A stretch of DNA of 64,000 nucleotides, taken from assembly GCA_015056865.1 (NCBI GenBank), contig SVFM01000014.1, forward strand, positions 1-64,000, read 5' to 3'. The notes beneath the pieces were generated by a model that had not been told where the DNA came from, did no database searches, and was given only the letters and a program-made list of their open reading frames with translations. Origin of the DNA: Lachnospiraceae bacterium. GTDB taxonomy: Bacteria; Bacillota; Clostridia; Lachnospirales; Lachnospiraceae. A program made the translations under genes and the position numbers. Positions 51,913 through 55,603 of the stretch are shown here, piece after piece (the stretch's first letter is position 1; every line of letters begins with the position of its first letter).

Positions 51913-52025
51913 GTGAAATACTCCTTACTTGACTTTCTCATATCACTGTTTTAATATGGGGATGAACTTTACTGAGAATATCATGTTTTGCAATATTTTG
52001 TCAAGTTATGGGGGATAATAAGGTG

Positions 52026-52876
52026 ATGAGATTATCAATGGAAAGCTACGAACTGTACAAGCGATTTGGGGATGAGAAGGCTATTCTCATGCTCAAAGAG
52101 GCAGGATTTGATTGCATAGATTACTCCTTTTTCTGGTTGGAGGATCAGGATCCGGCTCTGGGAGAAAATTACATTGCTCATGCCAAGGAGGTTAGACGGC
52201 TTCTGGAGGAAAACGGTATGACCTGTAATCAGGCCCATGCGCCTTTTGATATGACATATGATGATCAGTTGGATTTGACCAACAAAGAATATGTGAAGGT
52301 GGTTCGTGCCATAGAGGCGGCTGCCATCATGGGAGCAAAGAATATTATTGTGCATGCCATTAAGACACCTAAGCCGGAATATTTTTTTGAACGCAATCTG
52401 CTTTATTATAAAAGTTTGGAACCCTACTGCCGGAAGTTTGGTATTTGTGTAGCAATAGAGAATCTATTTCATTTTGATCAAAAAAGAGATTACTGTCTTG
52501 GGGTGCTGCATACGCCACAGCTGTTGCGTGAACTGATAGAGGCGCTGGATTCCCCTTGGTTTGTGGTATGTATTGATGTGGGTCATGCAGCGCTGACCGG
52601 ATATGAGCCGGAGGATATGATCCTTTCTTTGGATAAGGACATATTAAAGGCACTTCACATCCATGACAATGATTACAGAAGGGATGATCACAGACTGCCT
52701 TACACCGGAAGTTTCTGTTGGAATAATATCATGTCAGCACTAAAAAAATAGAGTACAGTGGAGATTTTACCTTGGAGCTTCCCCAATATCTAAAGAAATT
52801 TGATGACGATTTTATGCAGGAAGCTCTGAATTTTGCGGCTAAGGTTGGCAGATATTTGATTGGAAAGATTTCTTAA
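52026..52876 (+). pseudogene. Sugar phosphate isomerase/epimerase (TIM barrel), C-terminus displaced by an A7 frameshift
   Basis: Frame ends ..NNIMSALKK* at 52751; the -1 frame continues IEYSGDFTLELPQYLKKFDDDFMQEALNFAAKVGRYLIGKIS* to 52876. Confidence 0.75.
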
Positions 52877-52891
52877 AAAGGGTGTACGACT

Positions 52892-55603
52892 ATGGGGGCT
52901 ATCAAAAGGATAAGTGTGGGACTACTCGCTCATGTAGATGCGGGCAAGACCACGCTGTCAGAGGCATTGCTCTATGAAAGCGGTGCGATTCGCAAATTGG
53001 GCAGAGTGGATGATCGGAATGCTTTTTTAGATACTTTTGAAGTGGAAAGAAGCAGAGGAATCACTGTGTTTTCCAAACAGGCGGTGTTTTCTTTTGGGCA
53101 GCTGCAGCTTACCCTTCTGGATACGCCGGGACACGTGGATTTTTCCTCGGAGATGGAACGGACTTTGCAGGTGCTGGATTATGCCATATTGGTGGTGAGC
53201 GGATCAGAGGGGATACAGGGACATACCCGGACCTTGTGGAAATTGTTGCAACGGTATGAAATCCCTGTTTTTGTTTTTATTAATAAGATGGACCAGCCGG
53301 GGACAGATCGTGATAGCCTGCTATGTAAACTTCGAGAAGAATTGTCGGAGGCATGTATTGATTTTTCCGGGGTAACTGAAGATGAAAATTTTGCAGAAGA
53401 GATTGCTATGTGCGCCGAGGAGGCGCTGGAGCAGTTTCTGGAGCAGGGACTGGTGGAAGAAGAACTGGTATGCAGAATGATAAAGAACAGGCAGGTATTT
53501 CCCTGCTTTTTTGGAAGCGCCTTGCGAATGGAAGGCATAGATGTTTTTCTTCAGAAGATGGAGCGGTACATGGTGGCTCCGGTTTATGGTAAGGAGTTTG
53601 GCGCCAGGGTATTTAAGATTGCAAAGGATGCCCAGGGAAATCGACTTACTTATCTGAAGGTTGTGGGCGGAGTTTTGCGCAATCGTGATGTATTAAAGGG
53701 AACTTTTGTGAATGCAGCGGGAGAGTCCGAAAAGTGGGAGGAAAAGGTTAATCAGATTCGTATCTATTCGGGTGAAAAATATGAGGCGGCAGGAGAAGCG
53801 GCGGCAGGAACGGTTTGTGCAGTGACAGGGTTGAGCAAGACCAGACCCGGGGAGGGACTTGGGACCCAAAAGGCACAGCTGCCGCCCCTTTTAGAGCCAG
53901 TGCTAAGCTATTGCATGAAATTGCCTGAGGGGTGTGATGCTTCTGTGATGCTTCGTAGACTAAGGGAGTTGGAAGAGGAAGATCCCCAACTGCAGATTGC
54001 CTGGAAAGAGGAATTACAGGAGATCCATGCCAAGGTCATGGGGCAGGTGCAGTTGGAGATCCTGCAGGGAATGATCCTGGAGCGCTATGGGGTGGAAGTA
54101 ACCTTTGGAGACGGAGCGATCATTTATAAGGAGACGATCGCAGATATGGTGGAGGGTGTAGGACATTTTGAACCTCTGAGACACTATGCAGAAGTGCATC
54201 TGATCCTGGAGCCAGGAGAACGGGGCAGTGGACTTCAGTTTGAGACAGCGGTAAGCGAGGATGAACTTAGCAGGAACTGGCAGAGGTTGATTCTGACCCA
54301 TTTGGAGGAGCGGTCCCACAAGGGCGTGTTGACCGGATCAGTCATTACGGACATGAAGATCACATTGGCTGCCGGAAAGGCTCATCTGAAGCATACAGAA
54401 GGCGGAGATTTCCGGCAGGCTACCTATCGGGCAGTACGTCAGGGATTGATGCAGGCATCCGGCGTGTTGTTGGAGCCATATTATGGATTCCGTCTGGAAT
54501 TGCCGGAACGCTATATTGGAAAAGCCATGACAGATGTGGAGCGTATGTATGGGAAGTGTGAGTTGCAGGACACCGCTGGTGGCATGGGATTGATAACCGG
54601 CCGGGCTCCGGTACAGACGATGCAGAATTATCAGAAAGAAGTGGCTGCATATACCGGAGGAGAAGGACATCTTTTTTGTGAACTTGTGGGATATGATTCC
54701 TGCCATAATGCACAGGAAGTGATAGAACAGATCGGCTATGACAGCCAGAGTGATCTGCGTAATACAGGTGATTCCGTGTTTTGTGCTCACGGTGCCGGGT
54801 TTGTGGTGCCCTGGTATGAGGTGCCGGAATATATGCATTTGGAATCCAGACTGGGGATGGCCGGGAGCAGATGGGCAGGATATGTGCAGGAGGATGGCCC
54901 CTCAGGTGGTCAAGGAGAAAGAGATGGAAATGCACCGGTTCGCGCCGCGGTAAGAGGAGGCGGCCAGGAAAGATGGCTGGGCACTGAGGAGATTGATGCC
55001 ATTTTGGCCAAGACTTACAACGCCAATCGCAGAGAAAGTGACAGAGGCAATCGGTGGGCAAAACATAAGCCGGATAAGCCACAGCCCAGCCCTACAGTCC
55101 GCACATACAAACCTGCAGAGAAAAAACCACAGTATTTGCTGGTGGATGGCTATAATATTATTTTTGCATGGGAGGATTTGAAAGAACTGGCTCAGACCAC
55201 CATAGATGGTGCCCGAGGTAAGCTTTTGGATGTGCTATGCAACTATCAGGGAATGAAGAAGTGTGAAGTGATCGTGGTGTTTGATGCCTACCGGGTACAG
55301 GGACACCGGACGGAGGTGCTGGATTATCACAACATTCATGTGGTGTATACCAAGGAGGCAGAAACTGCAGATCAGTACATTGAAAAATTTGCCCATGAAA
55401 ACAGCAAGCGCTACGATGTGACGGTGGCCACCTCAGATGGTTTGGAGCAAATCATTATTATGGGACAAGGATGTCAGCTGCTCTCTGCCAGGGATCTGCA
55501 ACAGGAGATAAGCCGCCAGGAAGATATGCTGCGGCAGGACTACCTGAAAAAACAGCCTAAGGCCAGAAATCTGCTGGGAGAGAGTATGAAGTTTCTTCCG
55601 TGA
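52892..55603 (+). CDS. TetM/EF-G-like ribosomal GTPase fused to C-terminal NYN (YacP/Rae1-like) domain
   Basis: GTPase motifs AHVDAGKTT, RGITV, DTPGHVDF, NKMD; C-terminal YLLVDGYNIIFAW, VVFDAYR, EAETADQYIE, VATSDG. Confidence 0.88.
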   Translation: MGAIKRISVGLLAHVDAGKTTLSEALLYESGAIRKLGRVDDRNAFLDTFEVERSRGITVFSKQAVFSFGQLQLTLLDTPGHVDFSSEMERTLQVLDYAILVVSGSEGIQGHTRTLWKLLQRYEIPVFVFINKMDQPGTDRDSLLCKLREELSEACIDFSGVTEDENFAEEIAMCAEEALEQFLEQGLVEEELVCRMIKNRQVFPCFFGSALRMEGIDVFLQKMERYMVAPVYGKEFGARVFKIAKDAQGNRLTYLKVVGGVLRNRDVLKGTFVNAAGESEKWEEKVNQIRIYSGEKYEAAGEAAAGTVCAVTGLSKTRPGEGLGTQKAQLPPLLEPVLSYCMKLPEGCDASVMLRRLRELEEEDPQLQIAWKEELQEIHAKVMGQVQLEILQGMILERYGVEVTFGDGAIIYKETIADMVEGVGHFEPLRHYAEVHLILEPGERGSGLQFETAVSEDELSRNWQRLILTHLEERSHKGVLTGSVITDMKITLAAGKAHLKHTEGGDFRQATYRAVRQGLMQASGVLLEPYYGFRLELPERYIGKAMTDVERMYGKCELQDTAGGMGLITGRAPVQTMQNYQKEVAAYTGGEGHLFCELVGYDSCHNAQEVIEQIGYDSQSDLRNTGDSVFCAHGAGFVVPWYEVPEYMHLESRLGMAGSRWAGYVQEDGPSGGQGERDGNAPVRAAVRGGGQERWLGTEEIDAILAKTYNANRRESDRGNRWAKHKPDKPQPSPTVRTYKPAEKKPQYLLVDGYNIIFAWEDLKELAQTTIDGARGKLLDVLCNYQGMKKCEVIVVFDAYRVQGHRTEVLDYHNIHVVYTKEAETADQYIEKFAHENSKRYDVTVATSDGLEQIIIMGQGCQLLSARDLQQEISRQEDMLRQDYLKKQPKARNLLGESMKFLP

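Follow-up and report, generated by a model that had tools for sequence, protein, structure and literature searches.

Rae1 (YacP, PF05991) of Bacillus subtilis attacks mRNA within the ribosomal A site (PMC6613710, PMC12320835, PMC10100781), and both experimental mRNA targets and cleavage in the A site are documented for it (PMC6613710, PMC10632193, PMC12320835). In its free form it is a protein of about 170 aa whose gene lies between rlmB and sigH. A joined form was recorded by Atkinson et al. (2015; PMC4342817), who described Tet proteins of ten Clostridiales species with an extra YacP-like NYN RNase domain; a resistance mechanism was speculated on for these fusions, with no experiments. A sequence-only reading of the locus described below had named prior functional characterisation of the fusion as an objection. 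The architecture had indeed been published on the basis of sequence (PMC4342817), but no functional study of it was found in the literature searched; an earlier mention elsewhere is possible. The protein studied here is a member of this group, with the same architecture. Whereas the fusions were presented in 2015 as Tet proteins with a possible role in resistance, they are described here as a non-Tet clade which is widespread in Clostridia and takes the place of free Rae1.

The window, i.e. the whole 64,000-nucleotide stretch of a Lachnospiraceae contig that was analysed, contains an uninterrupted ORF on the plus strand which runs from an ATG at 52892 to a stop at 55603 and encodes 903 aa. The reading frame, the Pfam matches (each above its gathering score) and the same architecture in relatives identify it as a complete gene for a translational GTPase fused to an NYN/YacP nuclease. 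Chance joining or an assembly artefact was excluded by hundreds of relatives with identical architecture. All parts listed in the following are on the plus strand. The GTP_EFTU G domain occupies residues 1-227 (52892..53572; PF00009, match 7-227, 168 bits) and contains the motifs AHVDAGKTT (13-21), RGIT (55-58), DTPGH (77-81), NKMD (131-134) and GSAL (208-211), which are essentially invariant among 57 full-length fusions (the window protein and 56 proteins from public genome records). EF-G domains II and III (residues 236-406; 53597..54109) were matched by PF22042 (EF-G_D2, 236-320) and PF14492 (EFG_III, 335-406), domain IV (409-523; 54116..54460) by PF03764 (EFG_IV) and by alignment to TetM, TetO and EF-G, and domain V (525-607; 54464..54712) by PF00679 (EFG_C). 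Domain IV is the part that enters the A site in EF-G and Tet proteins. Its tip loop, AHLKHTEGGDFR (residues 497-508; 54380..54415), was delimited by conservation and alignment; nearly all of its positions are invariant in the 57 fusions, and His498 and Lys500 fully so. A C-terminal extension, SVFCxHGAGFxVxW...YMH (608-649; 54713..54838), was recognised by comparison with orthologues and in the predicted structure, where it forms a hairpin and a helix; it is common to most orthologues lacking the NYN domain, whose chains stop there.

The nuclease domain (residues 748-898; 55133..55585) matches NYN_YacP (PF05991) at residues 749-898 with 174 bits against a cut-off of 24.6 (E 2.9e-51, profile positions 1-152 of 166). 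Its VDGYN, VFDAY, ETAD and ATSD segments align with B. subtilis Rae1 (5MQ8, E 5.5e-25), and the acidic residues D752, D798, D827 and D849 are invariant in 57/57 full-length fusions. In the AlphaFold2 model the GTPase part and the NYN domain are both predicted confidently, with very low confidence for the region of about 657-745 between them. The best 50 matches in a fold search with the full model were EF-G-type structures only, and therefore prediction and search were repeated with the NYN domain by itself. It then matched the two Rae1 crystal structures with Z 19.7 and 17.4 (best match 5MQ9: rmsd 2.0 Å over 135 residues), the next matches being 5'-exonucleases with far lower Z scores of 8-9. 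The sequence-only reading, which had assigned the N-terminal part to complete translational GTPase motifs and the C-terminal ~150 aa to a YacP/Rae1-like domain with putative acidic residues, was thus borne out on each of these points; loss of the NYN fold or of the catalytic acids, which would have spoken against it, was looked for, and both are present. The fusion shares with Rae1 of B. subtilis (5MQ8, 5MQ9) the fold, about 40% identity in the core, the catalytic acids and the position of sole YacP-family protein of the cell. Unlike free Rae1, it is placed behind a translational GTPase, at another locus, and lacks the EKxRR tail.

GTPase and nuclease are separated by a linker of about 90 aa (residues 650-745; 54839..55126), predicted to be disordered (mostly pLDDT < 50). 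Measured from the conserved Trp to DGYN, its length is 80-129 residues in 75 fusions. It harbours a short conserved helix, EEIDxI..T..AN (698-712; 54983..55027), which is common to the fusions and absent from NYN-less orthologues. This helix may be a ribosome contact or a self-contact.

As to the kind of GTPase, membership in the EF-G/EF2 family follows from the complete G1-G5 motifs, domains I-V and the fold matches of the full model to EF-G structures. With EF-G the fusion shares these domains and a His at the tip of domain IV; it differs in that identity is about 24% and that EF-G genes are separate in the genome. On the EF-G profile it scores 285 against a cut-off of 659, compared with 1119 for the housekeeping EF-G encoded at G000:C25. 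Besides the fusion, the genome (G000) encodes two EF-G-sized GTPases, of 709 aa (C25) and 718 aa (C11). Tet(M), Tet(O) and Tet(W) resemble the fusion in domain order, fold and roughly 30% identity, but have the tip motif YSPVSTP, which is absent here, and the fusion remains under all curated cut-offs and on a separate branch. Its best NCBIfam match is tet_protect (NF012153) with 427 bits against a cut-off of 775, and the TetM/W model (NF033148) yields 288 against 1100; a true Tet protein of a relative exceeds both cut-offs with 832 and 1246. In the alignments AHLKHTEGGDFR stands in place of Tet YYSPVSTPADFR, with Lys500 at the position of TetM Pro509 and His498 at that of the EF-G tip His. In TetM, Pro509-Val510 displaces the drug (PMC8161019). 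Given the missed Tet cut-offs, the tip residues and the separate clade, the sequence data indicate a translational GTPase subfamily distinct from true Tet proteins, and a tetracycline-resistance label is unsupported. Membership among the Tet resistance genes was accordingly rejected (scores below the cut-offs, tip motif absent, separate and well-supported branch), and resistance to tetracycline by way of the fusion appears unlikely. Of the earlier description as a "Tet(M)/EF-G-like GTPase", the assignment to the EF-G/EF2 family with domains I-V can be kept; the Tet part cannot, as the protein misses all Tet cut-offs and falls into its own clade.

The phyletic survey that the sequence-only reading had proposed was run and revealed the fusion to be widespread in Clostridia. 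In a sample of the order, classes being assigned from the reading frame around each PF05991 match, 226/245 genomes encode a YacP domain and 19/245 have none. The free form only was found in 124 genomes and the fused form only in 94; two carry the fusion and a remnant, two carry both (G126 and G108, the fusion of the latter being truncated by a contig end), and one is unlisted. Three further matches lie in frames of 300-700 aa and are cut or broken fusions, which brings the fusion-only total to about 97. A sample of the class, overlapping with that of the order by a few genomes, contains a YacP domain in 104/156 genomes (fused in 56 genomes of 20 families, free in 47 genomes of 21 families, broken in one) and none in 52/156; no genome among the 156 has two YacP matches above the cut-off. 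In the Desulfitobacteriaceae sample all or nearly all of the 28 positives are fusions (one frame, of just 297 aa, may have been truncated by a contig end), and 12/40 genomes are without a YacP domain. A free copy was absent from 16/16 named genomes found via the fusion, including Clostridium punense, Desulfosporosinus acididurans and Fusibacter sp. 3D3. In the genome of the window the fusion holds the sole PF05991 match, and within its family the fusion is near-universal (66/72 genomes). About half of the sampled Clostridia that possess a Rae1 nuclease thus carry the GTPase-joined form, and fusion and free Rae1 almost never occur together in one genome; as the genomes share ancestry, these counts are not independent. 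Mutual exclusion could partly reflect the sufficiency of one copy. Since 19/245, 52/156 and 12/40 genomes have no YacP domain at all, the function is dispensable.

The slot between rlmB and sigH was inspected for traces of rae1. At free-Rae1 loci, rae1 adjoins sigH in 20/23 cases, usually with rlmB on the opposite flank. In the cysS-mrnC-rlmB-sigH cluster of the window's own genome, sigH follows rlmB after 22 bp and the slot is without rae1. rlmB was found near sigH in 25/30 fusion-bearing genomes. In 20 of these 25 the two matches are 11-262 bp apart with nothing recognisable between them, and one has a longer gap, also without rae1. In G126 and G108 an intact rae1 is still present in the slot beside a fusion elsewhere in the genome; G044 retains a broken rae1 that contains a stop and whose two pieces are out of frame with each other, G017 about 28 codons, and G001 a 49-residue fragment directly before sigH. 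The two states even occur in a single genus, with cysS-mrnC-rlmB-rae1-sigH in G135 and a fusion together with a 37-bp rlmB-sigH gap in G130. Read from these gene remains, the three fragments and two intact copies represent a replacement caught in stages. A second weak match in G415 was rejected as a rae1 remnant, having neither rlmB nor sigH beside it. Three genomes of one genus of the window's family (G157, G082 and G204; loci L021, L022 and L024) encode free Rae1 and an NYN-less GTPase, their rae1 having no rlmB or sigH flank within 1.5 kb; rae1 may have moved in them, or their lineage may never have acquired the fusion.

NYN-less orthologues of the GTPase, of ~650 aa and with 38-48% identity over domains I-V, are encoded in ~20/80 free-Rae1 genomes. 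Those of the same order have an HTEGGDFR or HTSGGDFR loop and mostly share the C-terminal extension, most stopping just past SVFCxxGxxFxVxW...H; unlike the fusion they have neither linker nor nuclease, and they co-occur with free rae1. In a quick maximum-likelihood tree, which included a single bona fide Tet, the 29 fused GTPases group together as a single clade (SH-aLRT 100), with the NYN-less protein of G050 as sister and within the NYN-less group; EF-G, the Tet in question (of the Tet(M/W) class) and weaker Tet-like proteins branch outside these fused and NYN-less proteins. As the fused GTPases form one clade inside their NYN-less orthologues, the tree points to one fusion event. In a tree of the NYN domain, short and with weak support in places, the free Rae1 and the fused NYN domain of G108 are widely separated, as are those of G126, and the fused group takes in the fusion-derived domains from the Desulfosporosinus, Clostridium and Fusibacter genomes. 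That each genome built the fusion from a rae1 of its own is unsupported, as free Rae1 and fused NYN domain are far apart in the genus with both copies. It is likely that a ready-made fusion was transferred into hosts with a rae1 of their own, which then decayed.

A further difference concerns the C-terminus. In a simple pattern count the EKxRR tail was present in 21/25 free Rae1 proteins and in 6/97 fusions, i.e. lost in 91/97; in the window protein, too, it is absent, the tail consisting of residues 899-903 (55586..55600). EKxRR is a conserved feature of free Rae1 that lies outside the family definition. By alignment its last Arg corresponds to residue 166 of B. subtilis Rae1, in which R166P is a loss-of-function substitution (PMC6613710). 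Loss of the motif fits a scenario in which the GTPase took on the ribosome docking once done by the nuclease tail; C-terminal drift is another possible cause.

The surroundings of the fusion gene offered no conserved operon partner: when ORFs around 80 fusions were clustered, no true neighbour recurred in more than seven loci, larger clusters being judged antisense or out-of-frame ORFs within the fusion gene itself. A scan for promoters and terminators at the gene gave nothing of note. Just upstream lies an ORF for a TIM-barrel isomerase-like protein (52008-52879, plus strand; PF01261) that ends at a TAG directly after CTA AAA AAA (A7 run, 52742-52748). A -1 shift at this run would append about 42 residues (IEYSGDFTLELPQYLKKFDDDFMQEALNFAAKVGRYLIGKIS). 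Since paralogues in the genome have longer open frames (285-313 aa vs 261 here), the short frame reflects slippage, a recent frameshift or an error in sequencing. In family searches, several fusion matches, of G219, G056, G097, G307 and other genomes, contained TAA, TGA or TAG inside the match; these may be true interruptions or simply reflect matches that extend beyond the end of the gene.

Domain composition, catalytic acids, GTPase motifs, single origin and replacement of free rae1 can be regarded as established at the level of sequence. Because the free gene is decayed or gone, the joined protein very probably does the job of Rae1. The explanation we consider the most probable is that the fusion is the bacterium's Rae1, an endoribonuclease which would cut mRNA on paused ribosomes while tethered to an EF-G/Tet-type GTPase. 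EF-G-type factors place domain IV in the A site; as domain IV and Rae1 share this site, they must act sequentially or at different places. In the proposed mechanism the GTPase, loaded with GTP, would dock at the factor site of a ribosome with an open A site, where domain IV would probe the A site and, upon GTP hydrolysis, withdraw. The nuclease on its flexible linker of ~90 residues would then enter the A site, or reach the mRNA entry channel, and cut. Docking on the ribosome, which free Rae1 manages by itself, would thereby fall to the GTPase. A linker of 80-129 residues permits such a hand-over from domain IV to the nuclease. The order in which the two act in the A site is a guess, and in the main alternative mRNA may be cut at the entry channel with the GTPase still in place. 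The matching GTPase is missing from most of the free-Rae1 genomes that were tested; Rae1 can thus in general do without it. More tentatively, many Clostridia might have swapped free Rae1 for a self-delivering, GTP-gated mRNA-cleaving factor, in which the GTPase finds paused ribosomes and hands the mRNA to the tethered nuclease, while the older NYN-less GTPase would work with free Rae1 in trans. The sequence-only reading had suggested a ribosome rescue or mRNA-cleavage system; ribosome-directed mRNA cleavage is the best explanation, but nothing speaks specifically for rescue, and the comparative evidence more directly favours a Rae1 substitute, i.e. translation-dependent mRNA decay.

Other explanations have to be weighed against the Rae1 substitute. 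The chain might combine two independent activities, a GTPase with its own task on the ribosome (EF-G-like remodelling, anti-stalling) and an ordinary Rae1, the fusion setting only their ratio and place with no hand-over. The NYN-less GTPase alone in ~20/80 free-Rae1 genomes, the occurrence of free Rae1 without the GTPase and the loose coupling implied by a long disordered linker are in keeping with this proposal, but loss of EKxRR in the fusions suggests a nuclease that has ceased to dock by itself, and the linker helix and the joined state have been kept across the whole clade; we consider it unlikely. It is somewhat more doubtful still that the tethered NYN domain, in a position comparable to that of SmrB but with an unrelated fold, cuts mRNA not in the A site but at the entry channel or in between ribosomes that have collided. 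While the GTPase is bound, the A site is filled by domain IV, and the linker is long enough to reach elsewhere; however, Rae1, the only characterised homologue, cuts in the A site, and no collision-sensing part was seen in the fusion.

An rRNA or tRNA maturation nuclease which uses the GTPase to locate ribosomal particles, in line with an older NYN/YacP prediction cited in PMC4342817, would agree with the position of free rae1 next to rlmB and mrnC, which serve to modify and mature rRNA. It is rendered very unlikely by the experimental mRNA targets and A-site cleavage of B. subtilis Rae1 (PMC6613710, PMC10632193, PMC12320835) and by the location of the fusion outside the rlmB/mrnC neighbourhood. 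Most improbable is a variant resistance mechanism in which a tetracycline ribosomal protection protein has gained an RNase (PMC4342817): tet_protect is the best NCBIfam match at 427 bits, and Tet(M)/Tet(O) have the same fold and domain order, but the scores (427 vs 775, 288 vs 1100) contrast with the 1246 reached by a relative's true Tet, and Lys and His occupy the place of TetM Pro509-Val510. Moreover, the fusion's presence in 66/72 genomes makes it near-universal in the family, and in some genomes separate Tet-sized genes with 31-36% identity coexist with it.

New in this work are the evidence of Rae1 substitution, the wide spread in Clostridia, the single origin, the likely transfers and the separation from Tet. 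Such proteins occur in many gut bacteria, for which the resistance label is probably wrong; reading them as Rae1 fusions gives a function to gut-bacterial proteins whose best-scoring models are those for tetracycline resistance. A natural fusion that replaces Rae1 also names a partner for the nuclease, a translational GTPase, and with it a directly testable route of delivery.
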